Shown here piece by piece: positions 7,850-58,900 of a stretch of 64,000 nucleotides of DNA; the first letter of the stretch is position 1; every line of letters begins with the position of its first letter. This DNA comes from Leisingera aquaemixtae (GTDB lineage Bacteria; Pseudomonadota; Alphaproteobacteria; Rhodobacterales; Rhodobacteraceae): contig NZ_JAHVJQ010000006.1 of the NCBI RefSeq assembly GCF_019801145.1, positions 62,001 through 126,000 of the forward strand, read 5' to 3'. Below the pieces are notes generated by a model, which saw only the letters and a list, made by a program, of their open reading frames with translations, was not told where the DNA came from and did no database searches. The position numbers and the translations under genes were made by a program.

Positions 7850-8098
7850 TTAGCCGCGGGTGATGGAGAGCAGAACCAGAAACATCACCGGCACCATGCA
7901 CAGCGCCGGGATATAGAGGCCCGGAATGCCGAACAGCATGATCGAGCAGCCCCACAGGCTGACGAAGGTTGCGAGAGCGTAATAAATGTTTTCCTCGGGG
8001 CCATAGACGACCTCCTTGATCAACCGCCCCAGGATCGGCAGGGCAAACAGGATTCGCTGCCACAGGGTCAGGCGGGCGGGAAGGGCATATGCGCTCAT
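7850..8098 (-). CDS. Small conserved membrane protein
   Basis: This 82-residue protein has two hydrophobic segments: a weaker one at about residues 14-26 and a strong one at about 42-80, which may cross twice. Between them is a charged stretch, GRLIKEVVYGPEENIYYAL. The reading frame has roseobacter-like codon use and a credible start (complement of 8096-8098). No function is known to me. It is flanked by the UbiH-family gene downstream and the nucleotidase upstream on the same strand. Confidence 0.65.
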   Translation of the reverse strand: MSAYALPARLTLWQRILFALPILGRLIKEVVYGPEENIYYALATFVSLWGCSIMLFGIPGLYIPALCMVPVMFLVLLSITRG

Positions 8099-8221
8099 CG
8101 GTCGGGCTCCTTAAGGTCGTTTCGCGGCGCATATAAGGAGGAAAAGATGCGGCAAACAGGTATATTTTGCCGCAGTTGCAAAGAATTGCCGGAATGCCGT
8201 TGTACACAGTCTGTTATGCGG

Positions 8222-8246
8222 CAAAGGGCGCTCGATTGCGCCTTTC
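8222..8246 (-). terminator. Terminator of the HAD nucleotidase gene
   Basis: An inverted repeat (AAAGGGCGC and GCGCCTTTC arms around a short loop) lies 15 bases past the stop codon at 8261 and, read on the minus strand, ends in CCCTTTGCC. The T-run is short, so strength is uncertain. Confidence 0.45.
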
Positions 8247-8260
8247 GCAGCGGGAGGAAA

Positions 8261-8905
8261 TTAGTTCAAAGCGGCCAGAAAACCCGCCAGATCATCGGAA
8301 TGATGATGGATATGCGCGGCGCTGACCGGCTCCGGCGCCACATGCACAGTGCGCATGCCCATCTCATGCGGGGCCGCCAGGTTTCGCGCGTCATCCTCGA
8401 ACATCGCAGCCTGCTGCGGCACCACACCCGCGCGGGCAAACACGCGGTCAAAGGCGCGGCGTTCCGGCTTGGGGTGGTAGTCGGCGTGTTCGACGCCGTA
8501 GACCGCGTCAAACAGCCCCGACAGCCCGCGCGCGGCCAGAACCCGTTCTGCATAGGGGGCGGAGCCGTTGGTGTAGACGATCTTCTTTCCCGGCAGGTTG
8601 CGGATCGCAGCTGCCAGCGGCGCGTCCTCCTCCAGATGGTCCATCGAGATGTCGTGCACCGCCACCAGATAGGGTTCCGGGTCCAGGTCATGCTCGCGCA
8701 TCAGACCGGCCAGGGTGGTGCCATGCTCGCGCCAGTAATGGCTGCGCAGGCGGTCGGCCTCTGCCTTGTCCACCTTGAGCGCGTCCATAACATAGGCTGT
8801 CATCTTGACCTCGATCTGGTCGAACAGCCGCGCGGACGGATGATAGAGGGTGTTGTCCAGATCGAACACCCATTGGCAGACGTGGGAAAAGGCTTGTTTG
8901 GGCAT
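8261..8905 (-). CDS. HAD-superfamily pyrimidine 5'-nucleotidase-like phosphatase
   Basis: The 214-residue protein starts at the ATG complementary to 8903-8905, because the HAD motif I (VFDLDNTLY, nucleophile Asp15) must lie near the N-terminus; an upstream in-frame ATG adds 23 unrelated residues. Motif II is KKIVYTNGS, and motif III/IV includes KPERRAF and MFEDDARNL. This arrangement is that of the SDT1/pyrimidine 5'-nucleotidase group, which dephosphorylates UMP- or CMP-like nucleotides. Substrate is inferred from family only. Confidence 0.88.
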   Translation of the reverse strand: MPKQAFSHVCQWVFDLDNTLYHPSARLFDQIEVKMTAYVMDALKVDKAEADRLRSHYWREHGTTLAGLMREHDLDPEPYLVAVHDISMDHLEEDAPLAAAIRNLPGKKIVYTNGSAPYAERVLAARGLSGLFDAVYGVEHADYHPKPERRAFDRVFARAGVVPQQAAMFEDDARNLAAPHEMGMRTVHVAPEPVSAAHIHHHSDDLAGFLAALN

Positions 8906-16947: not shown

Positions 16948-18642
16948 GTGACGCTCTTGAGCCGTATTCAGGCCTTGTCGCAAGACCAGGTGGTGGCCGC
17001 AATTTATGAAACTATGATCCGGCCGGAGCAGTTCGACCGGTTTACTGCCGCGCCGCAGGACAGGGCGGGTGAAGCGGCGGTACAGGAGGGCTGGGGCCAG
17101 CGGGACCGGCTGCAGGCGGCACCGGTGTTTCAGGCGCATTTTTCCAGGGCCGCAGACATCCAGGAGCAGCAGTGGGTCCGCGCGGGGCGGCCGCATCCTG
17201 GCGGCTATTCCGGCGATTGCAGCCGGTTCTGGCTGCTGGCGGAAGCTGCGCCGGGCGGCAGCGTGCTGAATGCCTCGCAACGGGCGGCGCGCCAACTGAC
17301 CGGCGGCACGGGGCTGCCTGCCGCGATGGGCCTGACGGCAGCGGCGGCTGAACGCTGGCAATGCTATCTGGCGCAGGCGGGGGCGGGAGATTTCTCCTGG
17401 AGCGACGTGCTGCTTCTGGGCGCCTGTGCAGGCGGCGAGCAGTATCTTTGCCGCCCGGTCCCGATGAAGGGCGGCGGTGGAGCGCATGTGGCGGTGATGG
17501 CCGAACGTCTTGAAGGGGCATGGAACGGCGAGGCCGCGGGCCCTGTCGCGGCAGCCCTGGGCCTGCAGGAGCAGGATTTCGAGCCGTTGAAGGAGGCCAT
17601 GAATGGCGCTGGCGGCAAGGTGGATCGCAGCCTGCAGCAAATCGCCTGGAGGACAGGTGTGCCGGGCATCGCCGAACTTGTCCGGCTGACTTCCTTCCTG
17701 ATGAACGAGCACAGCCGCGATCTGGCGATTGCCCGCGGCGACCGGCTGCCCGCGTCAGAGACGTTTGAAGATGGCAGCGGCCAATGCAGCCAGTTCTTCC
17801 GGCTGGGGGCGGAAACCGGCCAGCCGGTGATATTCGTGCACGGGATGCTGGACGGGATAGCGCCGTTGCAGCGTCTTCAGCCGCAGCTGCGGACGCTGGG
17901 TTTCAGGGTCTATGCTCCGATGCGCCGCGGGTATGGCAGCTCCTCCGCGCTGCAGCGCGGCCAGGATCCGGCCGATGCCTTTGTGTGGCAGCTGGAGGCG
18001 CTGATGGCGCGTGAAAACCTGCAGCGGCCGGTGCTGCTGAGCCACCGCGGCGGGGCGCTGTACGGCCGTGTTGCGGCCAGCCGCCTTCAAAGCAAGATCG
18101 CTGGGTTGGTGTCGGTAGCCTCCAACTGCGCAATCAGCTCACCGCGGCAGTTTTCCGGCCTCAGCGGCTATGCCTGGCTGGTTGCGCTTGGCGCTGCGCG
18201 GGCCAACTGGATGCTGCCCGCGCTGATGCGGGGCTGGGCGGCGGCCCTGCACTGGTACGGCCACAAGACGCTGCTGCAGATGCAGACCCGCCGCGGCAGC
18301 AGGGAGCGGGCCATGCTGCACCAGCTGGAATTGCTGCCGCTGCTGCAGCAGAGCCAGATGCTGTTCCGGCAGCAGGGCGGGGCCGGTTTCCTGGCGGATG
18401 TGCAGATGCTGCGGCAAGGGGGGCAGGATGCGGCGCTGGCACGCAGCGCGCGGGTTGTGTTCGTGCATGGCGCCGAAGACCGCGTTGCGCCGCTCGAGAC
18501 TATCCGTGATGCGGCCGGCAGCGCGCCTGACGCCCGGCTCTGCGTCAGCCAGGAGGCAGGCGCGCTGCTGTTCTATATGTTCCCGGAGCTGGTGTTGACC
18601 GCGCTGCAGGATCTCGCAGGTACTGCGGATCCCTGGTCCTAG
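16948..18642 (+). CDS. LuxR/alpha-beta-hydrolase-like protein with both active parts degenerate
   Basis: The GTG at 16948 is chosen because GGAGG lies seven bases upstream. The protein has about 564 residues. The first 200 look like a sensory region. At about 208-245 a LuxR-type helix-turn-helix is recognisable in [20 protein letters not shown] but lacks roughly 12 residues that normally hold the first DNA-binding helix. From about 285 there is an alpha/beta-hydrolase fold: [10 protein letters not shown] and GAEDRVAP are kept, but the nucleophile elbow reads SHRGGA (Arg about 367 instead of Ser) and the usual catalytic His is Ala (about 539). It is probably a binding or scaffold protein, not an enzyme. 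Confidence 0.75.
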
Positions 18643-19289
18643 CCACTGAAAACCTGCTCAAAGCTGCGCCTGAGGGCGACATCCACATCCGCCAGCGTGA
18701 CCGGCAGGCCCAGGTCCACCAGGCTGGTCACCCCGTATTCGGTGATGCCGCAGGGCACGATGCCGGTGAAATGCTCCAGCTCCGGCTCGACGTTGATCGA
18801 AATGCCGTGGAAGCTTACCCATTTGCGCAGCCGGATGCCGATGGCAGCGATCTTGTCCTCGGCCATGGCGCCCGAGATGGTGCGAGGCTTGTCCGGCCGC
18901 TCGACCCAGACGCCGACCCGGCCGTCGCGGATGTGGCCCTTGATGTTGAATTCTTCCAGCGCCGCGATCACCCAGGTTTCCAGCTGCTGCACGAAGCGGC
19001 GCACGTCATGGCCGCGCTGGCCGACATTCAGCATCACATAGACCACCCGCTGGCCCGGCCCGTGGTAGGTGTACTGGCCGCCGCGCTTGCTTTCATAAAC
19101 TGGAAAGCGGTCCGGGTCGGTCAGGTCTTCGCGCCTGGCCGAAGTGCCGGCAGTGTAAAGCGGCGGATGTTCGACCAGCCAGATGCATTCCTCCGCCGAT
19201 CCGGCTGCAATCGCCGCCGCGCGCTCCTCCATGAAGGCAACCGCTTGATCGTAATCGACTAAACCGTCCGATGTGATCCACTCAACCAT
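18639..19289 (-). CDS. lipB: Lipoyl(octanoyl) transferase
   Basis: LipB moves octanoyl groups from acyl carrier protein to lipoyl domains of 2-oxoacid dehydrogenases and the glycine cleavage H protein. The 216-residue product has [19 protein letters not shown], the family stretch [29 protein letters not shown] with the lysine region, and [15 protein letters not shown] with the catalytic Cys. It is convergent with the LuxR/hydrolase-like gene and overlaps its stop by four bases. Confidence 0.97.
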
Positions 19290-19415
19290 GGCTGTAGCCG
19301 TCCTTTTCCATCACGTGCGCGGTTTCCAGGAAAATTTGACCTGAAAACCCTAGGTGCCAGCGCTCCCTGTGGAGTATCCTGATTCCGTAACCAGTATCCA
19401 TAGGGGGCGAGTATC

Positions 19416-21032
19416 ATGTTTACCAAGCCGCTCAAGCCGGCCCTGACAGCCGCTTTTCTGGCAACCTCCGCCACCGGTCCCGCAATTGCAGATGAGCTCG
19501 GCGCTGCAATTGCCGGCGCTGTGATCGGCGGCGTCATTGTCAATGAGGTTCATAAGAACAAGCAGCGCCAGCGCAATGCCGCGACCACCTACCGGCGTGC
19601 GCCCGTTTATTCCGCGGCGAGGGCGGAAAACCGCGAAACGCAGGTGGCTCTCAACTATTTCGGGTTCAACGCGGGTTCGCCGGACGGGGTGCTGGGGCGG
19701 CGGTCGCGGGCGGCCATCACCCAGTACCAGATCCACATGGGCTATCCGGCCACAGGCCACCTGACGCCGTATGAACGGAATTTCCTGGTCAGTTCCTACA
19801 ACCGCGCGCAAGTGGGCGGCCCGGAAGTGATCAGGGCGATGCAAGGGCCGAATGGCGTGCGCGCAGTGCTGCATACCTGGCGGGATGAGGCCGCGGGCAT
19901 CCGCTCGGCAGGCAGCAGCTATGCCGGCGGCGGCTACGGCGGGCTTCCGCCCGAGGTCAGCCATGCGGTGGACGAGATTGCGGCAAGCTCCGAGCCGACG
20001 GGCGAGCAGTTGCTGCAGCGCACCGGCTTCCTGCAGCTGGCAGACCTGAATGGCGACGGCCGCAACGACTATGTGCTGGATACATCGGTCTCCGGCAGTT
20101 CCTTCTGGTGCGGTGCATCGAATTGCTCGGTGATGGTCTTTGCCTCGACCCCGCAGGGTTATCAGCGCAATGATTTCCTGGCCCGCGGCGTGACCCCGGC
20201 CAGCTTTGCCTGCCATCAGGGCAACTGCCGGATGACGGATACCGGCGCAGAGGCCCCGGTTCAGGCGGCGCAGCAGACCCGCAGCACCGTCACGGCCTTT
20301 GCCGGGCAGGAAAATGCGTCGCTGGGCGGCATCACCCTGTTCGATGAGCCTGAGCAAAGCGCTTCTCTCACCAGCTATTGCAGCAAGGTGAGCCTGCTGA
20401 CCAGCTCCAACGGCGGCTTCACGACGGTGGACAGCATGAACGACCCGGAACTGGCGCTGGGCGAGCAGTTCTGCTTGGCGCGCACTTATGCCATCAACGC
20501 AGGCGAAGCCCGCGCGACCAAGGTCGCAGGGGCCTCGCAGGCGCAGATCGACAGCCAGTGCGACGCCTTCGGGCCTGCCTTGAAACCCTATCTTGCCAAG
20601 CTGGGCATCTCTGGCAGCGGCGAAGTGATGGGCGACGTGCAGAAATTTGTCCTGCAATCCGGCATGTCGCTGGAGCAGCTCTCCAATACCGCGGGGATCT
20701 GCCTGTTTTCCGGCTACCGGCGCGACGACATGGATGTTGCGCTGGGCGCGGCACTGATCCTGACCGGCACCGGCCAGCGGCCCTATGCGGAACTGATCGG
20801 CCATCATCTGGCGCTGGGCTTCGGCGCACCGAACGCGGTGAAGAAGGCGCAGGAATGGTACAGCATGGCGGTGATTGCGCTTGAAAGCGGCGCCGAACCC
20901 GTCTTTGCGCCGGGCCAGTCCGGGCGGGCCGAGCTGATCAAGACGGCGTCGAGAGAGCTGGCGGGCGGCCGGGTGCAGCCGGTGCAGGCCTCCGGCGGCG
21001 CAGCGTCGCTGCCGACCTTCGGCACCGACTGA
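19416..21032 (+). CDS. Secreted peptidoglycan-binding-domain protein
   Basis: The 538-residue product begins with a signal peptide (cleavage likely after AIA, about residue 26). A PG_binding_1-type domain follows at about residues 68-125 (TQVALNYFGFNAGSPDGVLGRR). A later segment, LADLNGDGRNDYVLD (about 208-222), resembles an FG-GAP or EF-hand-like calcium loop. The C-terminal half contains paired cysteines that may form disulfides, consistent with a periplasmic location. The binding domain suggests attachment to cell-wall glycan; no catalytic domain is seen. Confidence 0.82.
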   Translation: MFTKPLKPALTAAFLATSATGPAIADELGAAIAGAVIGGVIVNEVHKNKQRQRNAATTYRRAPVYSAARAENRETQVALNYFGFNAGSPDGVLGRRSRAAITQYQIHMGYPATGHLTPYERNFLVSSYNRAQVGGPEVIRAMQGPNGVRAVLHTWRDEAAGIRSAGSSYAGGGYGGLPPEVSHAVDEIAASSEPTGEQLLQRTGFLQLADLNGDGRNDYVLDTSVSGSSFWCGASNCSVMVFASTPQGYQRNDFLARGVTPASFACHQGNCRMTDTGAEAPVQAAQQTRSTVTAFAGQENASLGGITLFDEPEQSASLTSYCSKVSLLTSSNGGFTTVDSMNDPELALGEQFCLARTYAINAGEARATKVAGASQAQIDSQCDAFGPALKPYLAKLGISGSGEVMGDVQKFVLQSGMSLEQLSNTAGICLFSGYRRDDMDVALGAALILTGTGQRPYAELIGHHLALGFGAPNAVKKAQEWYSMAVIALESGAEPVFAPGQSGRAELIKTASRELAGGRVQPVQASGGAASLPTFGTD

Positions 21033-21270: not shown

Positions 21271-21357
21271 GCGGTCGTGGCGGAATTGGTAGACGCGCAG
21301 CGTTGAGGTCGCTGTTCCTTAACCGGAGTGGAAGTTCGAGTCTTCTCGACCGCACCA
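21271..21357 (+). tRNA. tRNA-Leu (anticodon GAG)
   Basis: The 87-base gene has a 7-bp acceptor stem (GCGGTCG with CGACCGC), discriminator A and an encoded CCA. The anticodon stem CAGCG/CGCTG frames the loop TTGAGGT, giving anticodon GAG at 21305-21307. A long variable arm and the T-loop GTTCGAGTC fit leucine tRNA. It decodes CUC and CUU. Confidence 0.97.
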
Positions 21358-21560: not shown

Positions 21561-23834
21561 ATGCCGACTTCAGACCCCGGGGCTTGCAGCAGCAGGATCC
21601 TTGAACGCGAACTGAGCGCGCTGACCCTGGCGGGGAGGCGCCTGCTCGACGCCGTGGAGATGACCGCGCCGGAAGGCCGGTTTGCCCGGCTGTTCTTCCG
21701 GTCCGGCACCGCGCCTGCGGGCATCAGTGTCCCCAAGGGCAGCAAGGCGGTTCTGCACAATTTCGGCGGGGCGCCAGTCCTGGATACCGGGATCGGGACG
21801 GCAGGCGCGCCGGCCGCGGTGGTGTTGGATGGCACCTTGCACAAGGTTGCAGTGCATCTGGATGAAACGGCGCTTTTTGCCGGGCTGAATGTTCTGGCCG
21901 CGGTCCGCAATGGCGAGACGGCGGAAACTGCGGCTGACTGGCTGCGCTTTCACGTTCAGCAGCACGGCATGCAGGGGGCAGTCATCTTTGACCGGGCGCC
22001 GCCGGAAGACAGCCGCAGCTTCATCCGAAGCTTGCGGGCGCAGGCTGAAAACTTGGACGGTCTGGAACGTGTAGTGGTGGTGCACGCCGGGCTGCCTCTG
22101 GGCAAGGAGGGGCTGCCGGAGGAAGCGCATCCTTTCAACGTGCCGGGCGCGCCGGGCAAGGACCGGATGGAGATCCCGCCCGCCGATCCCTGGCGGGCGC
22201 CGCTGGGCGAGGTTCTGATCTACGAGATCCTGCGCGCCCGCTTCCTGGCGCGCGCGCGTGCGGCGGCCAATATCGACCTGTTCGATCTGCTGGCCCCGGG
22301 GGAGGGGCCGAATGTATTTGACCGCGCGGTCGCCGCGCCCTCGGGCTGCGTCCGCCTCGGCGGGGTGCAGGCCTATCCCTGGCGGGTGCGCAAGGGCGAT
22401 ACGCCAGCCTTTGCGGATCACATTTGCACCCAGTTCGACGCATCTGGCGAGCGCCCGCGCTGGTGCCTTGCGCCTGCCAAGGCCGGGCCGGACTGCATCT
22501 GGCGGCTGATCCGGGTGGTGGGCGCGGAGCCTGATCCCGGCCAGGACGTGCGCTTTTACCGCTGCATGGCGCTGCGGCATCCGGCCGATACCGTTTCCAA
22601 GCTGGTGCCGAAAACCAGCCTGGTGGAAACCCCGGAGCTGCTGAAACTGGCCACCGGCCACTTCAACGCCAAGCCCGTGCGCATTCCCGAGGAGAAGGCC
22701 GTCAAGCCCGGCTGCGACAAACAAAAAACCACCGTGGTTACCACGATGAAGAACGAAGGCCCCTTTATCCTGGAATGGCTGGCCTATCACCGGATGATCG
22801 GGGTGGATGACTTTCTGGTCTACACCAACGACTGCACCGATGGCACCGACACCATGCTGCAACTGCTGCAGCGCAAGGGACTGGTGCAGCACCGCGAAAA
22901 CCCCTTTCGCAATACCGGTCTGAAGCCGCAGCACGCGGCGCTGCAGGCGGCTGATAACGAACCGGTCATCCAGAATGCCGACTGGGTGGTCTGCATGGAC
23001 GTGGATGAGTTCATCAACATCAAATGCGGCGAAGGACGGCTGGCGGATCTGTTCGAGGCTGTAGGCGACGCCAACATGATCTCAATGACCTGGCGGCTGT
23101 TCGGCAATAACGATGTGCGCGACTTCAGCGGCGATCTGATCCTGCGCGACTTCACCCGCTGCGCCCACGAAGTCACCCGCAAGCCGCATCAGGCCTGGGG
23201 CTTCAAGACGCTGTACCGCAACACCGGCATCTTCAAGAAGCTGGGGGTGCACCGCCCCAAAGGGCTTAAGCCGCAGCTGTGGGAGGACATCCGCTGGGTC
23301 AACGGCTCCGGCCGGGACATGCCGCGGGAGATGTTTCGCAACGGCTGGCGCTCGTCGATGAGCACCTACGGCTATGACTTGGTGCAGCTCAACCATTACG
23401 CCGTGCGCAGCGCCGAAAGCTTCCTGGTCAAGCGCGACCGGGGGCGGGTCAACCATGTCGACCGCGACCAGGGCCTGTCCTACTGGTTCCGGATGAACAA
23501 CAACGCCGAGGAGGAGCGCTCGATCCAGCGCATGATCCCGGCGCTGGAGGCCGAGATGGCGCAGTTGCTGGCGGACCCGGACATCGCTGCCGCGCATGAA
23601 CATTCCTGCCGCAAGCACCGGGAAAAGATCGAAGAGCTGAAGACCCGCGATGACATGATTGCGCTATTCAGCGAACTGACCAGCGGCAAACTGAGAAAGC
23701 TGTCCCGGATGCACGCGCATTTCGGCGCCAACGTGTTCCTCAGCGGCCCGGGCGTGGTCCCGGACGAGATCGCCGAAAAGGAGCCAGGCGACGATTTCTG
23801 GTTCACGGTGGCGCGCGGCGAAACCACACATTGA
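21561..23834 (+). CDS. Large protein with tandem GT-A-like domains (GT2/GT92-like glycosyltransferase)
   Basis: This 757-residue soluble protein has a recognisable glycosyltransferase domain in its second half: TTVVTTMKNEGPFILEWL (about residue 390), then CMDVDEF with the metal-binding DxD at about 480-482, then a domain of the Glyco_tranf_2_4/GT92 kind. The first half repeats the same order in weaker form: VLAAVRNGETAETAADWL (about 110) and NIDLFDLLAPGEG (about 238). I infer an internal duplication with a diverged N-terminal copy. It opens an accessory cluster of five genes and probably acts on a surface glycan. Confidence 0.82.
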   Translation: MPTSDPGACSSRILERELSALTLAGRRLLDAVEMTAPEGRFARLFFRSGTAPAGISVPKGSKAVLHNFGGAPVLDTGIGTAGAPAAVVLDGTLHKVAVHLDETALFAGLNVLAAVRNGETAETAADWLRFHVQQHGMQGAVIFDRAPPEDSRSFIRSLRAQAENLDGLERVVVVHAGLPLGKEGLPEEAHPFNVPGAPGKDRMEIPPADPWRAPLGEVLIYEILRARFLARARAAANIDLFDLLAPGEGPNVFDRAVAAPSGCVRLGGVQAYPWRVRKGDTPAFADHICTQFDASGERPRWCLAPAKAGPDCIWRLIRVVGAEPDPGQDVRFYRCMALRHPADTVSKLVPKTSLVETPELLKLATGHFNAKPVRIPEEKAVKPGCDKQKTTVVTTMKNEGPFILEWLAYHRMIGVDDFLVYTNDCTDGTDTMLQLLQRKGLVQHRENPFRNTGLKPQHAALQAADNEPVIQNADWVVCMDVDEFINIKCGEGRLADLFEAVGDANMISMTWRLFGNNDVRDFSGDLILRDFTRCAHEVTRKPHQAWGFKTLYRNTGIFKKLGVHRPKGLKPQLWEDIRWVNGSGRDMPREMFRNGWRSSMSTYGYDLVQLNHYAVRSAESFLVKRDRGRVNHVDRDQGLSYWFRMNNNAEEERSIQRMIPALEAEMAQLLADPDIAAAHEHSCRKHREKIEELKTRDDMIALFSELTSGKLRKLSRMHAHFGANVFLSGPGVVPDEIAEKEPGDDFWFTVARGETTH

Positions 23835-23893
23835 GCCTTCCAATCCTGGGCAGATTGACAGGCTTTCTGACGGCGGGCTAAATTTCGGTAACA

Positions 23894-23915
23894 AAAAGGC
23901 CGCTTAAGCGGCTTC
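23894..23915 (+). terminator. Possible terminator after the tandem glycosyltransferase gene
   Basis: The perfect palindrome GCCGCTTAAGCGGC (23899-23912) is preceded by AAAAA and followed by TTCTGT. Its T-run on the plus strand is poor, so partial termination or a bidirectional role is possible. Confidence 0.45.
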
Positions 23916-23944
23916 TGTATTGAGTGCAACAAGGGGCAGAAATC

Positions 23945-25513
23945 ATGGCGCTTCCGGCCATTGCGTCACTATGGGTGGGCGCCGAACTCAGCTGGCTGGA
24001 ACAGCTCTGCCTGAAGTCCTTTCTCGACAACGGACACGAGGTGGTCCTGTTTACCTACGGCGAGGTCAAGGGCGTGCCCGATGGCGTGCAAGTGGCTGAT
24101 GCCAATGAGATCCTGCCTGCCGACAACATCATCCGCCATGCCAAAACCGGCAGTCCGGCCTATCATGCGGATGTGTTCCGCCTCCATATGCTGCGCCAGA
24201 CCAATTATGTCTGGGCCGATACCGATGCTTATTGCTGCCAGCCCTGGGACATCCGGGGCAAACACTTCCATGGCTGGATCTCGGACGACAAGCCGATGGT
24301 CAACAACGGGGTGCTGCGGCTGCCCAAGACTTCCAGGACGCTGAAGGCGATGCTGCGGTTCACCAGCGATGAATACCCCATCCCGCCGTGGTACTCTGCA
24401 GAGAAGCAGGCGGAGCTTCAGGCGCTGAAGGACCGGGGCGAAGGGGTGCATGTCTCGCTGCTGCCCTGGGGGGTGTGGGGGCCTGATGCGCTGACGTGGT
24501 TCCTGCAGGAAACCGGCGAGATATCCCGCTCGCAGCCCGGCCATGTGATTTACCCTGTGCCGTTTAAGAACGCAGGCGTTGTGCTCAACCCGAACCGGCC
24601 TGTTCAGGCGGCCAGGCTGATCCGCGACGACACTTTGTCGATCCACTTCTGGGGCCGCCGCTTTCGCAATATCGCCGCCAAATACGGCGGCGTACCGGCC
24701 GAAGGCTGCTATGTCCACGGACTGCTGGCCAAACATGGCATCGATGCGGAAAAGACCCGGCACCTGCTGGCGCCGCCGCCGCAAGCGGAACCTGCGACAG
24801 CAGACCCGGTCGATCCGGCCTCGCTGGATTTCTCGATGTTCACGGATCAGGACGTGGCCAATATCCTGCTGCAGCGCTCTGAACTGGCAAGCTCCGGCCA
24901 GACCATCAGGGACTGGCTGGCGGGCGATGAACAGCTTCTGCTGGATGAAGCCCGCGGGCAGCGGGAACATATTCTTCGCGGGGCGGTGGGCATCGCCGGG
25001 CGGGAATGCGGTTTCTTCCTGAATTCCACGGACAGCATCGCCCCCGAACGGGCCGCAGATATCGGTTGCGGATATGCTTTTGCCAGCCTGCTGCTGCACC
25101 GCCGCTACGGCTGCAGCATCTTGCTGATTGATATCGAAGAGGGCAACGAACGCCATTTCGGCTTTGAGGGGGAGGGCGCGGGTTACAGCAGCCTGAAAAC
25201 CGCCCGCGCCTTTCTGGAGCAGAACGGCGTGCCGTCCGAGAAAATCACGACGGTCAATCCGAAGACGGACGATACCGCCGCGCTGGGCGCCTTTGACCTG
25301 GTCATCAGCCTGGCGTCCTGCGGCTTCCATTACCCGGTCAGCACTTACGAGGATCTGTTCCGCAGCCAGATCAGCGGCGGCGGCGGCATTGTCCTGGACA
25401 TCCGCAAGGGGTCGGGCGGTATCGGCGCCATGAAGAGTTTTGGCACTGTCGAAGTCCTGGCCAAGCATGGCAAATACTCCACCGTTCTAACCCGCAAGGG
25501 ACAGCAGAAATGA
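23945..25513 (+). CDS. Fusion of DXD-type glycosyltransferase and methyltransferase-like domain
   Basis: The ATG at 23945 is preceded by GGGGCAGAAATC; the product has about 522 residues. Residues 1-280 look like the sugar-binding DXD glycosyltransferase family (capsular or GT32-like): SPAYHADVFRLHML, then YVWADTDAYC with the DxD at about 90-92, and MVNNGVLRLP. Residues about 365-510 form a SAM-methyltransferase-like Rossmann domain with ADIGCGYAFASLLLHRRYGC and LLIDIEE. The stop overlaps the FkbM gene start (ATGA). It probably attaches and methylates a sugar on a surface polymer; substrates are unknown. Confidence 0.82.
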   Translation: MALPAIASLWVGAELSWLEQLCLKSFLDNGHEVVLFTYGEVKGVPDGVQVADANEILPADNIIRHAKTGSPAYHADVFRLHMLRQTNYVWADTDAYCCQPWDIRGKHFHGWISDDKPMVNNGVLRLPKTSRTLKAMLRFTSDEYPIPPWYSAEKQAELQALKDRGEGVHVSLLPWGVWGPDALTWFLQETGEISRSQPGHVIYPVPFKNAGVVLNPNRPVQAARLIRDDTLSIHFWGRRFRNIAAKYGGVPAEGCYVHGLLAKHGIDAEKTRHLLAPPPQAEPATADPVDPASLDFSMFTDQDVANILLQRSELASSGQTIRDWLAGDEQLLLDEARGQREHILRGAVGIAGRECGFFLNSTDSIAPERAADIGCGYAFASLLLHRRYGCSILLIDIEEGNERHFGFEGEGAGYSSLKTARAFLEQNGVPSEKITTVNPKTDDTAALGAFDLVISLASCGFHYPVSTYEDLFRSQISGGGGIVLDIRKGSGGIGAMKSFGTVEVLAKHGKYSTVLTRKGQQK

Positions 25514-26211
25514 CGGAAATCCTCGAAACCCACGGGGTGAAGATCCCGCTGAACCCGGATGTCATCACCTCTAAGATCGAACGCGCAATCCGCAAGGACC
25601 GCTATGAGCTGGACGAGGTCTCCGGCACGCCGAAGTTTCTCGAAAAAGACGACCGGGTGATCGAGCTGGGAGCCGGGATCGGGTTCATTTCCTCGTTTCT
25701 GGGCGTCAATCTGGGGGTCGAAAACGTGCTGTGCGTCGAGGCAGACCCATCGCTCTGCGCTTTCATCCGGAATGTCCACGAATTGAACGGCTTGTCCGCG
25801 GCACAGGTGCGCAATTGCGTCGCCCTGAATGATGCCGGGTCCGAAGGCCCGGTTTCATTCTATGTCCGCGAGCAGTTTTGGTCTTCTTCCCTTGATGGGG
25901 AGGAGCCTTTTGAAAAAGCCATCGAAGTGCCGGGCGTCCGTCTGTCGAAAATGATCCGGGATTTCAACGCCAACACCCTGATCGTGGACATCGAGGGCGG
26001 AGAGCGCGATCTGTTCGCGCCTGCGGATCTGAGCGGGATCGACAAGATCTTCTTGGAGATCCATACGCGAAAAATTAAGAAAATTGGGATAAAACAATGT
26101 TTTGACGCGCTGTCACAGAGCGGCTTTTGCTACGACCAGCAAGTCAGCCGCGGCGGATCTGTTCTGTTCCGGCGCATCCCAAGATGGCAGCTAAAGCAAT
26201 ATGCTGGGTAA
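25510..26211 (+). CDS. FkbM-family methyltransferase
   Basis: The 233-residue protein has the SAM-binding motif VIELGAGIGFISSFLG (about residues 50-65), followed by VLCVEADPSLCAFIRNVHELNG, a signature of FkbM O-methyltransferases. LIVDIEGGERDLF (about 157-169) is the family's conserved acidic motif IDIEGxE. Such enzymes often methylate sugars of surface glycans or glycosylated lipids. It is translationally coupled to the preceding GT-methyltransferase fusion and overlaps the next gene by 11 bases. Confidence 0.9.
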   Translation: MTEILETHGVKIPLNPDVITSKIERAIRKDRYELDEVSGTPKFLEKDDRVIELGAGIGFISSFLGVNLGVENVLCVEADPSLCAFIRNVHELNGLSAAQVRNCVALNDAGSEGPVSFYVREQFWSSSLDGEEPFEKAIEVPGVRLSKMIRDFNANTLIVDIEGGERDLFAPADLSGIDKIFLEIHTRKIKKIGIKQCFDALSQSGFCYDQQVSRGGSVLFRRIPRWQLKQYAG

Positions 26212-27574
26212 CAGCTTCGACTTCCAAACGGTTCTGCCCGCACTGGATGCGGATGAGGTCAGCACTATTGCGGATGTGAACGGCCAGGCACCCGGGCTGG
26301 CGGCGCTGCTGCACCAGCGCTACGGCTGCGGGATCGACGTTATCTGCCTGGACAGCACGGGGGGCTTCGCGCCCTTGCCGGAGGCGCAGCTGGCGGAATA
26401 CATGTCAGCGCTGGACCGCGGCGGGGTCGACCGGGAGGCCGTCCGCGTGGTGGCCCGTCCGCGCCGCCTTGGCCAATATGATGTGCTGATTTCGCTGAAC
26501 GGCTTTGGCGCCGTTCACAAGCCCCAGAACCTCAAATACGTGCTGGACCGTGCGCTGCATCCGCTCAGCCGGGCGGTAATCGAGATCCGCAAGGGCTCCG
26601 GCAGCTATCCGTTTCTGAAATCCTACGGCGGCTGCAACACGCTGAAGCTGCCGGAGGAAGGCGCCAACGGGCTTGCGGTGCTTTCTGTCGAGCCGCAGGA
26701 GGATGCAAAGCCGGCTGAGGGCTGGGCGCAGACGGCACAGGCGCTGGCGGGCGAGGAGGGGTTCTTTTCCGAGCTCAGCGAGCATTCCTTCCTGTTCGTT
26801 CCCCGCGGCGGCACCCTTGTCGTGACCTTTGACAACCTCGACATCGCAATGACCAAGCGCGCGGAGCGGCGGCCCTGGGGGTATGGCTTCATCGAGGCGC
26901 AAGGCTGGTCGATGCTAGGGGTCATGGCCAACGGCTGGACCTGGTTCCGCCACCAGGAGGTTATCCGCAAGTTCGAGGAGCTGCGCGACAGCGGATTCTT
27001 CGCGCAGTTTTCCCGGGTGGTGTTCTACGGCGCGTCGATGGGCGGCTATGCGGCGGCGGCCTTTGCCGCGGCGGCGCCAGGGTCAACGGTGTTCGCGATC
27101 AGCCCGCAATCCACCCTCGACAAATCTCTGGTGCCCTGGGAAACGCGCTACAGAAAAGTCTGGGAGCGGGATTTTTCCGGCCCCTTCGGCAATGCGGCGC
27201 TGGCCAGCCGCGGGGCTGGGGATGTGCATATCATGTACGATCCTTATGTGGCGCTGGACGCTGCCCATGCGGCCCGGTTCACCGGCGCCAATGTCACCTT
27301 GTGGCGCTGCCCGCTGCTGGGGCACCGGCTTGGGTCCTCGCTGCAGCAGATGGGGGTTCTGCAGGAAATCGCCTGCGGCGCCATCGCCGGCGATCTGACG
27401 CCGCAGCGTTTCCACCAGTTGCTGCGCAAGCGCCGCGGCTTTCCCCGGTTCCAGCGGGAGCTGGCGAACCTGGCACTGGACCGCGGCCATCCGGGGCTTG
27501 CGAAACAGGTCTGCACGTATATTTTGCGCCAGCGGGACGACCGGTTCTTCCGCCGGTTGAAGGACCGTCTGTGA
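26201..27574 (+). CDS. Degenerate methyltransferase-like domain fused to an alpha/beta hydrolase
   Basis: The 457-residue protein has two parts. Residues about 15-150 mirror the C-terminal methyltransferase-like domain two genes upstream (IADVNGQAPGLAALLHQRYGC; VLISLNGFG; VIEIRKGSG), but the glycine-rich SAM loop has become IADVNGQAPG, so binding is doubtful. Residues about 190-400 look like an alpha/beta hydrolase: FYGASMGGYAAAAF holds the nucleophile Ser (about 279), and LLGHRLGSSL offers a histidine. It may remove or transfer an acyl group on a glycan. Some databases may label homologues PAPS reductase; nothing here supports that. Confidence 0.75.
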   Translation: MLGNSFDFQTVLPALDADEVSTIADVNGQAPGLAALLHQRYGCGIDVICLDSTGGFAPLPEAQLAEYMSALDRGGVDREAVRVVARPRRLGQYDVLISLNGFGAVHKPQNLKYVLDRALHPLSRAVIEIRKGSGSYPFLKSYGGCNTLKLPEEGANGLAVLSVEPQEDAKPAEGWAQTAQALAGEEGFFSELSEHSFLFVPRGGTLVVTFDNLDIAMTKRAERRPWGYGFIEAQGWSMLGVMANGWTWFRHQEVIRKFEELRDSGFFAQFSRVVFYGASMGGYAAAAFAAAAPGSTVFAISPQSTLDKSLVPWETRYRKVWERDFSGPFGNAALASRGAGDVHIMYDPYVALDAAHAARFTGANVTLWRCPLLGHRLGSSLQQMGVLQEIACGAIAGDLTPQRFHQLLRKRRGFPRFQRELANLALDRGHPGLAKQVCTYILRQRDDRFFRRLKDRL

Positions 27575-27647
27575 TCTGTGCAGAGGGCCGCGCGGCAGGC
27601 TGCGATCACGCCGCCAGGATTAACCCGGACAGGGGCTGGACAGAACG

Positions 27648-28550
27648 ATGAGCCAGGCAGGCACTGACATGCAGGACATCACGCTCGCCTTTCACGTCGG
27701 GGCGCCCAATACCGACAACGGCCAGCTGACATGGTCGCTGCGCAAGGACGCGCAGCAACTGCTGGAGCGCGGCGTCATGATCCGGCGCCCGGGCACCTAC
27801 ATGGGGGCGCTTACCCAGGCGCTGCGCAAGCAGGACCAGGAATTCGTGACGGAGCAGGAGCGCGAGATGCTGCTGGCGGGCCTCGTCAAGGATCAGGCCG
27901 TCTCACGCATCATTCTGACCAACTCAAGCTTTCTGGGGGTGCCGGGCTGGATGCTGAGCGGCGGGCGGTTGTATCGCAACGCCGGTAAGAACACCGCGGC
28001 CTTGCGGGGCCTGTTTCCCGGCAATCCTTGCGAGTTCTTCCTTGGCCTGCGAAACCCGGCCACCCTGATCGGGCCGGTGTTCAAATCGCAGACTGGCCGG
28101 GCCTGGGAACAGTTCGCCGCGGATACGGATTTTCTGAGCCTGCGCTGGTCCGAGGTGGTGGAAGACATTCAGGTCCGAAACCCCGGCTGCCGCATCACCG
28201 TCTGGTGCAACGAGGAAACACCGGTGATCTGGCCCAGCATCCTGGGTCATGTATCCGGCCTTGGGGACAGCTTCCGGTTCAGCGGTGAGCTGGACATCAC
28301 CCGCGGCATCATTTCGGAGGCAGGTTATGAGCGGCTGGAGTCCTATCTGGCAGGTCGCCCCGGGCTGTCCGAGGACCAGCGGGAGCGGGTGCGAGCCCTG
28401 TTCCTGAGCTACTTCCACGACGAGGAGGAGATCGAGGAGGAGATCGATCTTCCCGGCTGGTCGCAGGCGCTGGTGGACGACATGAGCGAAACATACATGG
28501 CCGACGCCGAGCTGATCCGGCATATGCCGGGTGTCACCTTCCTGTCCTGA
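27648..28550 (+). CDS. Sulfotransferase-like protein with altered PAPS loop
   Basis: The 300-residue protein resembles the roseobacter sulfotransferase-like families. FHVGAPNTDNGQL (about residues 15-27) lines up with the 5'-phosphosulfate loop usually seen as HIGxHKTGTT, but the key Lys and following Gly-Thr-Thr are replaced. FLGLRNPATLIGPVFKSQ (about 131-148) matches the 3'-phosphate motif RNPxxxxxS/Y. It lies 73 bases after the hydrolase fusion and ends the accessory cluster, overlapping the convergent carrier gene by 17 bases. It may bind PAPS poorly or use another donor. A start at 27669 is also possible. Confidence 0.7.
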   Translation: MSQAGTDMQDITLAFHVGAPNTDNGQLTWSLRKDAQQLLERGVMIRRPGTYMGALTQALRKQDQEFVTEQEREMLLAGLVKDQAVSRIILTNSSFLGVPGWMLSGGRLYRNAGKNTAALRGLFPGNPCEFFLGLRNPATLIGPVFKSQTGRAWEQFAADTDFLSLRWSEVVEDIQVRNPGCRITVWCNEETPVIWPSILGHVSGLGDSFRFSGELDITRGIISEAGYERLESYLAGRPGLSEDQRERVRALFLSYFHDEEEIEEEIDLPGWSQALVDDMSETYMADAELIRHMPGVTFLS

Positions 28551-29472
28551 GCGTCGCGCGGCTAAAAAGCGGCTTCATCAGGATGGCGGTCAGATACATC
28601 GGGATTTGGTAGCAGCCGAGGAAGATCAGCAGCGGGTCGGTGGTGGCCGCGGGCAGGGCGATCAGGAAAAGCGCGAAGTTCCGGTTTCCGGCGACCACGG
28701 ATACGGGCACCACGCCGCTGCCCGCGCGGTGGCGCAATACTGTGAACACCATCACCTGCAGGCCCAGGTTGGCAGCCAGCGCAAATCCCAGCCATTGCAG
28801 AACCAGCACTGGGTCGGTCCGCAGCGCAGGCCCCAGCGCGGCCATCAGCCCCACCACAATCACCGCCAGCGCAATCACGGTCAGCCCGTCTATGGCCCTG
28901 GCCTGGTCGTCCCGCATCTGCGGCAGGGTCAGGCGGCGCAGCAGGAAGGCTGCCACCACGGTGAGGCCGATCGCGCCTATCAGCCGCCCGGCGGCGCGCA
29001 GCACCTCGCCCAGATCACCCAGGCTGGGTGCCAGCAGGAACACCGGGATCACCGTCAGCGGCATCAGCGCAGTCCCGGTGATCAGCAGGCGGAAGGCAGG
29101 TTCCGGCGCGTGCCCCATAAGCGCGGTGATATTGGGGCTGCCGGTCACCGAGGGCGCGCTCAGCATCAGGATCAGTGCGATGGCGGCCGGGGTCTGCGCA
29201 ACGCCGAACAGCGCGGCGATCCCCAGCGCCAGCAGCGGCAAGGCGACTTGCAGGAGGGCGATGGCCTTCAGTGTGCCGATGCCATCTGCCAGCCCGCCTG
29301 CGGCTTTGCGGAGGCCGATCCGGTAGGCGTTCAAAAACAAAAGCCCGGCCACCATCTGAGGCAGCCAGGGCTGAAGGGAAGCGGCGAGGCCGGGCAGCAA
29401 AAGCCCGGCCGCAAGCCCCAGGACCAAAGCGGCCCGCCCATGCCGGGCGGCAAAGGCGAGCGCGCGAAGCAT
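28534..29472 (-). CDS. Bile acid:sodium symporter-like membrane carrier
   Basis: The 312-residue protein has about nine to ten hydrophobic segments and the layout of the BASS/ACR3-like fold. SAPSVTGSPNITALMGH (about residues 105-121) and SVVAGNRNFALFLIALPA (about 259-276) are the two crossover regions that form the ion sites in this fold. The substrate is unknown. It lies four bases downstream of the TRAP large permease gene, so it may be the last gene of that operon and carry a related organic acid, or simply be co-oriented. Confidence 0.75.
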   Translation of the reverse strand: MLRALAFAARHGRAALVLGLAAGLLLPGLAASLQPWLPQMVAGLLFLNAYRIGLRKAAGGLADGIGTLKAIALLQVALPLLALGIAALFGVAQTPAAIALILMLSAPSVTGSPNITALMGHAPEPAFRLLITGTALMPLTVIPVFLLAPSLGDLGEVLRAAGRLIGAIGLTVVAAFLLRRLTLPQMRDDQARAIDGLTVIALAVIVVGLMAALGPALRTDPVLVLQWLGFALAANLGLQVMVFTVLRHRAGSGVVPVSVVAGNRNFALFLIALPAATTDPLLIFLGCYQIPMYLTAILMKPLFSRATLRTGR

Positions 29473-55932: not shown

Positions 55933-58900
55933 GCCGCGCCCTCCAGCTCTGCCATGATCGAGTTGCGTCGGGTGCTCCAGAGGCCTGCATCGTACAAGGC
56001 GCGGAAGCGGTCGCGCATGGCCTGCAGCGCCTCCGGGTTTTCGCGCTCCATGAACTCCACCAGATCGTCGCGGCCCAGGGTGGCCTCAAAATAGAGGTCA
56101 AACAGATGCGGCTGCACCACCTGCGCCAGATGCGCAAAGGCAGCCATGTGATCGAGCGTGGCGGCGATCTCGGCTGCGCCGCGGAAACCGTGGGACATCA
56201 TCGAGGTGGCCCAGTCCGGATTGGCGGCGCGGGCGCGGGTGACGCGGGCGATCTCCTCGCCCAGGGAACGCGCCTGCGGCTTGTCGGGGCGGGTCGCGTC
56301 GAGGTGGTAGAGCACCGGTGCGGTCTGGCCGATGCGGGCCATGGCTGCGGCAAAGCCTGCCTCATGCGCGGCGTAATCGGACGCGATCAGCAGGTCGGTT
56401 TCAGGCAGGTCCTGCAGGTGGACAAAGCTGTCGGCCCCCTGCAGGCGGGATTCCAGTGCCTCGCGGGCGTCGCTGATAGTGCCCTTGGCGTCGATGGCAT
56501 GGGAGGAGGCGTTGAGCCAGGCCTCGCCCGCCGCCTGGCGCGCCGCGTCGGTGTAGTCGTCCAGATGCGGGTTCATCGAGAGACCGTACTGGCCCGGCTT
56601 GGGGCCGAAGACGCGCGGGGTCTCGGTGAGATAGGGGTTGTCGGCCTGGGTCTCCTCGCGGGTAGCCAGTGCGGCGGCGGCACTTTCAAACATCTGGGCA
56701 AGGCCCGGGAAGACATCGCGGAACAGGCCGGAGACGCGCAGGGTCACGTCGATGCGCGGGCGGTTCAGCATCGACAGCGGCAGCACCTCAAAGCCTGAAA
56801 CGCGTTCGGAGCCTTCGTCCCACTGAGGCGCGAGGCCTGCGAGGTGCAGCGCCATGGCAAATTCCTCGCCCGCGGTGCGCATGGTGGCGGAGCCCCAGAG
56901 GTCGATCACCAGCCCCTTGGGCCAGTCGCCGTGGTCCTGAAGGTGGCGGCGCAGCAGCTCTTCCGCCAGCTTGACCCCTTGCGCATGCGCCGCCCGCGAC
57001 GGCACCGCCCGCGGGTCGGTGGTAAAGAGGTTGCGGCCGGTGGGAATCACATCGGCGCGGCCGCGGAACGGCGAGCCGGAGGGGCCGGGGGGGACGATTT
57101 TCCCGTCCAGCGCGGCAATCAGCCCGGCGCGTTCCTCCGCTCCGCATTGGCCGGTGCCGAAGATATGCAGGCCTTCGCCGTACTGGCTTTCCTTGATGTC
57201 GCAGACAAAAGCGTCGATGCGGGTGATCGCCTCAGCCGGGGAGGTGTCGGGGGTGAGGCCGAGGTCGGCTTCGACGCCGGTGCCCTGCGCCTCGGCGCGG
57301 ATGTCATTGATCAGCCGGTCGCGGCGGGCGGGATCAAGGCCGTCGGCAGTGGAATATTCGTCGAGAAGGCTTTCGAGCCGCGCCATGCCCTCGGGCAGGT
57401 TTGTCTGCGCCAGCGGAGGGGGCAGGTGGCCGATGGTCACGGCACCGATGCGGCGCTTGGCCTGGGCGGCTTCGCCGGGGTCGTTGACGATGAAGGGGTA
57501 GGCGACCGGCAGCGGGCCGGTCAGAACTTCGGGCCAGCAGGCGCCGGAGAGCGCCACCGCCTTGCCCGGCAGCCATTCAAGGGTGCCGTGGGCGCCGATG
57601 TGGATGAGGGCGTCGTTTTGGCTGCGCAGCCACAGGTAAAAGGCCACATAGGCGTGGCGCGGGGTGCGGTCGAGGTCGTGGTAGTCATCGACCCGCGTTT
57701 TTACTTCGCCGCGTTCCGGCTGCAGCGCGACCAGGGCGTTGCCCGCGCGTAAGGCGCTGAAATGAAAAGCGCCATCGCGGCAGTCGGTGTCTTCTTCCGG
57801 GGCGCCCCAGGCCGCAGCCAGGGTGTCCTGCAGGTCTTGCGGCAGGGTGGCGAGGGCCTGGCGGTAGTCCTCCAGCGGGATGCTGAGCGTCTCTTCCATC
57901 AGCCGCAGGCCGGTGTTTTCCAGCGCTTCGACGGCGTAGCCTTGGGCGGAGAGTTCGCGCAGGATCTCGTCGCAGGAGGCCAGCGCGTCCAGCCCGACGG
58001 CATGGGCAAGGTTGTGGTCGCGGCCGGGGTAGGTGGAGAGGATCAGCGCCAGACGCTTGTCTGCATTCGGCAGCTTGGCGAGGCGCAGCCAGCCCTCCAC
58101 ACGGTCCACAGCAGCCTTGATGCGGTCCGTATCGGCGCGGTGGGCAAAGCGGGAGTACTGCAGATCCGGGTCCTTCTTGCCCGGCGATTTGAAGCTGACG
58201 ACACCGGCGAAGATGCGGCCGTCAACCTCCGGCAGGACGACGTGCATGGCGAGGTCGGCGGGCGACAGCCCGCGGTCGGCCTCACGCCAGTCTTTTTTGC
58301 GGGCTGTCGAGAGGGCGACCTGGAACACCGGACAGCCGGTGGAGCTAAGCGGCGAGGCGCTGCCGTCGGTGCCTTGGGCGGAAAACGCGGTGGCATTGAT
58401 GATGGCGGCCGGGGCCAGTTCCGGAAGCTTTTCGCGCAGCCAATCGGCGGCTGCAGGCGCCTTGAGGCTGGCGGCAAAGACGCCAAAGGCCGCGTAGCCG
58501 CGGGCGCGCAGCTCTTCGATCAGCGCATCCACCGGGGCGGTGTCGGCGGCGGTGAGGTAGGAGCGATAGAAGCTCACCAGCACCAGCGGTTTGTCCTGCG
58601 GCGGCAGGTCCGCGAGCACGCCCTTGGCCGGGTCGTAGAAGCCGTGCTCGGGCATCGTCTTGAGGCCGAGGACGGGGCCAGCGTAGAGGCCTGCTGCCAG
58701 CGACAGCTGCGCAAGCGCAGCCTGGGCCGCGACAGCGCCGCCGGCGTCGCACAGGGATTGCAGGCGGCGCAGGGTGGAGACGGGCAGGGTGGAGAGCTCA
58801 TCGAGCCGCGCATCCTCGCGCCCGTCGGCCGGCAGGATTGCCAGCGCGATGCCCTTGCGGCGGGCAAGGTCCTGCAGGGTGGCAAGGCCGTAGGACCAGT

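Follow-up and report, generated by a model that had tools for sequence, protein, structure and literature searches.

The 64,000-nucleotide stretch of Leisingera aquaemixtae DNA analysed here (NCBI RefSeq assembly GCF_019801145.1, contig NZ_JAHVJQ010000006.1, positions 62,001 to 126,000; hereafter the window) comes from a 4.88 Mb genome and carries, from 21561 to 28550, five open reading frames (ORFs) of one direction, g1 to g5, predicted to encode glycan-modifying proteins. The cluster is a constrained core operon of the genus in which only g3, the gene of an FkbM-family methyltransferase, is accessory. Between close relatives g3 varies jointly with g4N, the degenerate methyltransferase domain that forms the N-terminal half of g4, while the remainder of the operon stays alike. 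What is new is this sub-gene cassette (an FkbM gene and a degenerate methyltransferase half), which varies as one block while the operon around it is constant. The halves of g1, g2 and g4 are denoted by N and C.

Joint variation of g3 and g4N

The right edge of the cassette lies near the linker of the two g4 domains, at about 26.73 kb (resolution about 100 bases). In a mosaic scan with 100-base steps, the identity between locus L161 and its backbone sister L165 was 0.79-0.99 across g2 and from g4C to g5, and fell to 0.44-0.78 from the end of g2 to this edge, where L161 and the window were 0.72-0.91 identical. In L165 an unrelated spacer replaces g3. The g4N tree joined L161 with the window (100/97), apart from 18 g3-less sequences of the genus (99/97), whereas the backbone tree (g1C+g2N+g4C) joined L161 with L165 (100/99). 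The presence and absence of g3 requires three state changes on the g4N tree and six on the backbone tree. When L161 and L165 were held together on g4N, the topology was rejected by the approximately unbiased (AU) test (p-AU 5.5e-8). Locus L159 was left out of both trees, the AU tests and the comparison of pair identities; g2C matches under 45% identity were also left out of the latter.

The same pattern was seen in four pairs of backbone sisters that differ in g3. Backbone and g4N identities were 94 and 61% in L161/L165, 89 and 47% in L171/L206, 90 and 58% in L205/L210, and 95 and 64% in L256/L204. Among g3-concordant pairs g4N identity was 89-98% at a backbone identity of at least 95% (n = 21), 64-84% at 90-95% (n = 81) and 64-81% at 85-90% (n = 52), whereas g3-discordant pairs had 58-64% (n = 4) and 47-65% (n = 34) in the latter two classes. 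The variable middle can reach into g2C, since this domain differs too in L256/L204 (60%) and is missing from L206.

Several observations weigh against an exchange of cassettes. Within the cassette, the window and L161 are no more alike than they usually are, and their synonymous distance there (0.56-0.69) is like that elsewhere, so no recent exchange took place between these two. The AU tests were not significant for L171/L206 (p 0.076) and L205/L210 (p 0.054), and the pairs tested were picked after both trees had been viewed. Below 85% backbone identity g4N did not differ between g3-concordant and g3-discordant pairs. When labels were shuffled, 4 of 5000 shuffles reached the observed effect, in a procedure that ignores relatedness.

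Some of these data would also fit a course in which g3 was lost and g4N then changed rapidly in place, with no cassette exchanged. Such a course is consistent with the two non-significant AU tests, the ordinary synonymous distance and the divergence of g2C in L256/L204, and with the g4N sequences of L204 and L256, which remain sisters (97/91) though only 64% identical. It does not account for the grouping of L161 with the window instead of with its sister L165, nor for the g4N sequences of L206, L210 and L211, which cluster (99/96) against their backbone sisters. We consider change in place the less probable course, though a serious one. Of the three pairs tested, one gives firm support for recombination, which the pattern in Leisingera requires.

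g3 passes both curated cut-offs of FkbM methyltransferases (Methyltransf_21, 26.8 against 22.7; TIGR01444, 45.3 against 37.7), as the earlier note on this DNA had proposed. Unlike in other members of the family, a degenerate methyltransferase is encoded in a frame that overlaps its own, and the presence of g3 tracks the type of that domain. It is poorer in guanine plus cytosine (GC) than its surroundings (0.56 against 0.65 in the window, 0.55 against 0.65 in L161, 0.48 against 0.55 in L171). For selection on g3 a single pair was available (dN 0.05, dS 0.69). Searches for g3 remnants between g2 and g4 in strains that lack g3 gave short, chance-level matches only, so gain and loss of g3 are not separable by spacer comparison.

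O-antigen and capsule loci have conserved flanks and a variable middle. The operon resembles them in its variable centre, constant edges and glycan genes; the variable unit here, in contrast, comprises a single gene and half of the protein that follows it, and one of its boundaries is close to a domain linker. By analogy with the variable genes of such loci, the cassette may vary glycan methylation between lineages, probably under phage or host pressure. A more specific and rather unlikely possibility is that g4N is the dedicated partner of g3, as the pseudo-methyltransferase of a catalytic and non-catalytic pair. It would link methylation with the hydrolase that shares its chain, and g3 and g4N would be swapped only together, as a matching set, so that lineages would have alternative types of surface-glycan methylation.

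Conservation of the operon

The sample comprised 101 relatives, of which 21 belong to Leisingera (the genome of the window and 20 others). All 21 genus genomes have g1, g2, g4 and g5 in the constant order g1-g2-(g3)-g4-g5. g4 is intact in 20 of them; in the remaining genome (G009; L159, positions 7984-8532) its middle is deleted, and one frame of 185 codons matches just the start and the end of g4. By contrast, g3 was found at this locus in two of the 21 (G000, the genome of the window, and G011); G020 has a distant FkbM match only (30%). The cluster, called accessory in the earlier note, is thus core to the genus, and patchiness is confined to g3. The frames of g2 and g3 overlap by 4 bases and those of g3 and g4 by 11 bases, which fits a single transcript.

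The best 80 of 365 confirmed loci were named, and gene order was compared in 68 of them outside the genus, some cut by contig ends. Nine had the identical order (L203, L204, L205, L206, L210, L211, L213, L230 and L256); five of these have g3, and two (L206 and L211) are without a separate g2C. Genome G023 (L171) has the same order, with g3. Other genera re-assort the pieces: in several genomes g2N, g4N and g4C lie within one long open frame, which in L206 and L211 is a stop-free frame of 734 residues.

Median ratios of nonsynonymous to synonymous substitution (dN/dS) among 20-21 genus sequences were 0.19 for g1N, 0.08 for g1C, 0.10 for g2N, 0.12 for g2C, 0.26 for g4N (the highest), 0.08 for g4C and 0.16 for g5; L162 was omitted for g2N and L159 for both halves of g4. 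The tested domains are under purifying selection; the degenerate ones evolve faster and are nevertheless constrained.

The earlier note had named two outcomes that would refute its reading, homologues scattered singly beside unrelated neighbours and evidence of decay. Decay was seen in just one case among the genus genomes, the internal deletion in g4 of G009. Scattering does occur in some genomes, on Phaeobacter plasmids, as opposed to the order kept throughout the genus and in the nine loci elsewhere. In Phaeobacter inhibens DSM 17395 the homologues of g1 and g5 lie on different plasmids, which counts against a fixed cluster, and in the plasmid stretches shown (plasmid records only) no other cluster gene is annotated beside either. 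The plasmid neighbourhoods of homologues contain sugar genes in some records and no constant partner.

Among the best 12 named matches to g1, 10 are from Leisingera, 81-83% identical. A Leisingera-type cluster with a 74% identical g1 also occurs in a record titled Nocardioides marinus (L202, JAHVJD010000004.1), a label that looks wrong. A Bacillus velezensis record among the plasmids searched (NZ_CP061939.1) has matches to g1C (31%) and g4C (42%), which are otherwise mostly alphaproteobacterial; a mix-up of records is possible.

Intact and degenerate domains

The scored motifs (DxD, motif I and the loop binding 3′-phosphoadenosine-5′-phosphosulfate, PAPS) are known catalytic or cofactor elements; their counts in aligned sequences were computed here. 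Three of the domains assigned in the earlier note, g1N, g4N and g5, were without the usual motif in every aligned sequence, in agreement with its view that folds were kept while key residues were lost.

g1 consists of two glycosyltransferase units. The C-terminal one exceeds the Pfam cut-offs for Glyco_tranf_2_4 and Glyco_transf_92 (74.6 bits against 27.5) and has DxD in all 24 sequences. g1N has no Pfam match. Its AlphaFold2 model (predicted local distance difference test, pLDDT, 91.4) aligned from residue 24 to 369 with the plant GT92 enzyme GalS1, the closest solved fold (Z 17.0, root-mean-square deviation (rmsd) 4.3, 288 residues). The top results of the fold search (Z 17.0 and 16.7) were both GalS1 and the next entry had 10.1. 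Against this assignment, the Foldseek template modelling (TM) scores of the model to its best matches, GT-A folds, were just 0.2-0.3. Sequence comparison gave no support for a tandem origin of g1, as the profiles of the halves are unlike (hhalign probability 4.6); the tandem glycosyltransferase of the earlier note stands by fold alone. The protein resembles GT92 and Glyco_tranf_2_4 enzymes in both comparisons and differs from them in having two units per protein, the first without DxD. At the expected strand end, a place taken from the model and not from the GalS1 alignment, DxD was present in none of 31 g1N sequences. The place is occupied by a DxxD or a Glu variant, residues 239 and 242 being acidic (Asp or Glu) in 31 of 31, and the unusual motifs RNGE and GKDRM are strongly conserved. 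g1N is likely non-catalytic.

In line with the earlier note, g2 reads as a fusion of a probable glycosyltransferase and a methyltransferase-like half. The ORF list opens g2 at a GTG (23924), and homologues begin at an ATG (23945). DxD is kept in all 29 sequences of g2N, nine of which match PF04572 at E≤0.01; the sequence of the window has no Pfam match (PF04572 and PF04488 were the kinds considered). The g2N profile matches a solved glycosyltransferase (E 3.6e-7), and its links to the alpha-1,4-glycosyltransferase families are weak. In g2C motif I (GCG) is kept in 15 of 15 sequences, five of which match Methyltransf_25 at E≤0.01; that of the window scores 19.8, below the cut-off of 27.

g4 is, as proposed, a methyltransferase-like domain fused to a hydrolase. 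g4N is homologous to g2C (hhalign 99.2%, E 7e-20), and both motif-I glycines are present in none of 24 sequences. For g4C a candidate triad was found, with Ser in 26, Asp in 28 and His in 26 of 28 sequences; its score with Pfam Esterase, 19 bits, is below the cut-off of 22. A g4C homologue on a Thioclava plasmid (L274, 15887-16819) is annotated as phosphoadenosine phosphosulfate reductase, a name unfit for an alpha/beta-hydrolase.

The model of g5 (pLDDT 91.5) has the sulfotransferase fold that its description as sulfotransferase-like implied. Foldseek gave a sulfotransferase match (E 9e-6, prob 1.00); its TM-score, 0.38, is low and counts against the assignment. In the fold search the best 28 results were sulfotransferases, presumably Teg12 and Teg14 (up to Z 11.5, rmsd 5.1, 223 residues aligned). 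g5 has no Pfam match. It shares its fold with PAPS-dependent carbohydrate and tyrosylprotein sulfotransferases; unlike these, it has a TDNxQ-like stretch (TDNxQLTWSL, conserved in most sequences) in place of the PAPS loop. A loop of the Lys/Arg-Gly-Thr-Thr type, for the 5′-phosphosulfate, was found in none of 19 sequences, and the second loop is partly kept (Pro in 18 and Arg in 11 of 19). Because the PAPS loop is gone, the sulfation step attributed to g5 is unlikely as written. With the profiles of g1N, g5 and g4C, searches against the sequences of solved structures found no match of note.

Retention of such domains as scaffolds, as the earlier note had it, is reasonable, in that several conserved domains lack the usual catalytic residues. 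They may instead be catalytically active with other donors or another chemistry, which we regard as possible and less probable than a scaffold role. The strong conservation of their unusual motifs, the invariable acidic residues of g1N and the partly kept second loop of g5 would suit activity; the absence of the usual metal or cofactor motifs from every sequence, and the dN/dS of g4N, the highest of all domains, argue against it.

Table 1. Positions of the genes, domains and neighbouring features in the window
Feature	Position	Strand	Description	Basis
lipB-like gene (- strand) and PG_binding_1 protein (+ strand)	18639..21032		left flank	
tRNA-Leu(gag)	21271..21357	+		ARAGORN
tRNA 3′ end	21344-21357	+	presumed attachment site of relatives' inserts	
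g1	21561-23834	+		ORF
g1N	21561..22700	+	GT92-like fold, usual DxD absent	model, fold search, motif counts
g1C	22713..23834	+	GT2_4/GT92 glycosyltransferase with DxD	Pfam, motif count
g2	23924-25513 (likely start ATG 23945)	+		ORF
g2N	23945..24778	+	probable DxD glycosyltransferase, alpha-1,4-GT/Gly_transf_sug kind	DxD count, profile match
g2C	24794..25513	+	class I methyltransferase-like, motif I kept	motif count
g3	25510-26211	+	FkbM-family methyltransferase, accessory gene, GC 55.9%	ORF
Cassette g3 + g4N	25510..26730	+	variable unit	mosaic scan, trees, AU test, sister pairs
g4	26201-27574	+		ORF
g4N	26201..26695	+	degenerate relative of g2C methyltransferase domain	hhalign, motif count
g4C	26705..27574	+	alpha/beta-hydrolase, Ser-Asp-His candidates (GASMGG)	motif counts
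g5	27648-28550	+	sulfotransferase-fold protein without PAPS-binding loop	ORF, model, fold search, motif counts
Membrane transporter gene	28534..29472	-	right flank, convergent with g5, overlaps g5 end by 17 bases	

The tRNA-Leu site

A tRNA-Leu(gag) gene ends 203 bases before g1, close to the 200 bases given in the earlier note, which had taken this neighbourhood as typical of acquired segments. In 13 of the 21 genus genomes the distance between the tRNA and g1 is about 0.2-0.4 kb; in L159 the two are on opposite strands. About 7-31 kb separate the two in G012, G013, G016 and G020; the left flank is on a separate contig in G005, G014 and G017; and no tRNA was found within the 20 kb examined in G008. 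A tyrosine integrase with an arm-binding domain adjoins g1 in L162 (G012), L163 (G013) and L166 (G016), and in these three loci and L164 (G014) the tRNA end TCTCGACCGCACCA is duplicated directly upstream of g1. The copies beside g1 share only about 14-18 bases, and that of L167 has diverged. The 7 kb insert of G020 has neither integrase nor tRNA-end copy.

An integrase and a duplicated tRNA end beside g1 indicate that the inserts enter at the tRNA and separate it from the cluster, whose own place does not change. Within the genus, tRNA-Leu(gag) is a hotspot of insertion; the inserts leave the operon intact, and the site of the window is empty. There is no integrase among the cluster ORFs, and a second tRNA end (14-mer) was not found in the window, including beyond g5, at 0 or 1 mismatch; one match with 2 mismatches, at 57662, is chance-like. 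The earlier report of no integrase and no duplicated tRNA end is therefore right for the window and incomplete, as relatives have both. The inserts resemble tRNA-borne integrase islands in these two features; the case differs from such islands in that the window has an unoccupied site and the glycan cluster is not part of the insert.

Delivery of the cluster itself as a genomic island at tRNA-Leu would agree with its position and with g3, which alone in the cluster is GC-poor. In three other genera (G036, G032 and G030) the arrangement of a gene that we take to be lipB-like, a PG-binding gene and tRNA-Leu occurs without an adjoining cluster, so the cluster probably arrived here in an ancestor of the genus. 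An island is nevertheless improbable: the cluster is present throughout the genus, its composition is ordinary outside g3, the relatives' inserts, with their integrase and second tRNA end, sit between the tRNA and g1, and no tRNA-end copy lies just past g5. Recent arrival at the tRNA is refuted, and it is possible that the cluster moved here earlier. Lying next to a tRNA does not in itself make a gene cluster cargo, and the reading of the cluster as an island by association is corrected accordingly.

Proposed function

We somewhat favour, over its alternatives, a conserved operon of soluble enzymes that would build and decorate a cell-surface glycan with lineage-variable methylation. Judged by predicted activities, g1C and g2N would add sugars; g2C, plus g3 where present, would add O-methyl groups; and g4C would remove or transfer an ester group. 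g1N, g4N and g5, with glycosyltransferase, methyltransferase and sulfotransferase folds, may serve as binding, positioning or partner domains. The surface location and the esterification, both taken over from the earlier note, are presumptive. The highest hydrophobic mean over 19 residues in the five proteins is 1.61, i.e. there is no long hydrophobic stretch, and the proteins are thus probably cytosolic.

Loci outside the genus suggest the kind of sugar. A gene of the UDP-glucose (uridine diphosphate glucose) dehydrogenase type lies in the same locus of about 20 kb in L171, L206 and L210. Epimerase-type genes (at least 60% identical to those of L171 or L219, which were assigned with Pfam) were found by tblastn in 19 of 121 sequences. 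In L216 a Sulfotransfer_2 gene lies between the g2N and g4C homologues, and tblastn found relatives of it in eight more loci. These sugar-nucleotide and Sulfotransfer_2 genes point to a glycan that probably contains a uronic acid, or else a sugar made from one.

Other results count against a surface glycan. The sugar-nucleotide genes searched by tblastn matched neither the window nor the genus loci, and none of the flanking genes inspected was recognised as a gene for export or for a polymerase. In three Roseovarius loci the homologues lie among flagellar genes: in L234 those of g1, g2N and g4 stand between FliP and FlgI genes (Pfam), and L253 and L270 are likewise flagellar, by similarity. 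Flagellin glycosylation islands commonly carry FkbM and GT2 genes. Glycosylation of flagellin or another protein, instead of a free surface polysaccharide, is therefore a live rival, if a quite unlikely one, given that flagellar neighbours occurred in only 3 of the 121 sequences searched with those queries. The presence of flagellin in 81 of the 101 genomes makes co-occurrence say little, and one genome (G039, 91% complete) has g1 and g5 matches and no flagellin match.

A literature search at the level of titles and abstract beginnings found nothing naming this cluster. In passages of one paper, "pseudo-methyltransferases" are truncated genes in the meningococcal capsule locus, unrelated in kind (PMC6619384). 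The operon offers a small natural system, contained in a single genus, in which to ask why glycan enzymes without catalytic motifs are conserved and whether a pseudo-methyltransferase has to be matched to an active partner. As the marine bacteria Leisingera and Phaeobacter can be cultured, each step is open to gene-deletion tests.

Locus and neighbouring genes

The five co-directional ORFs of the earlier note were verified. Promoter-like and terminator-like sites at the cluster were near chance level. The flanking genes are listed in Table 1; the label of the transporter on the right is presumably BASS. On other contigs of the same genome, g1C-like and g4C-like genes adjoin each other in L186, a lone g1C-like gene occurs in L187 and a lone g2N-like gene in L188. 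The neighbours of these three loci are, we assume, housekeeping genes.

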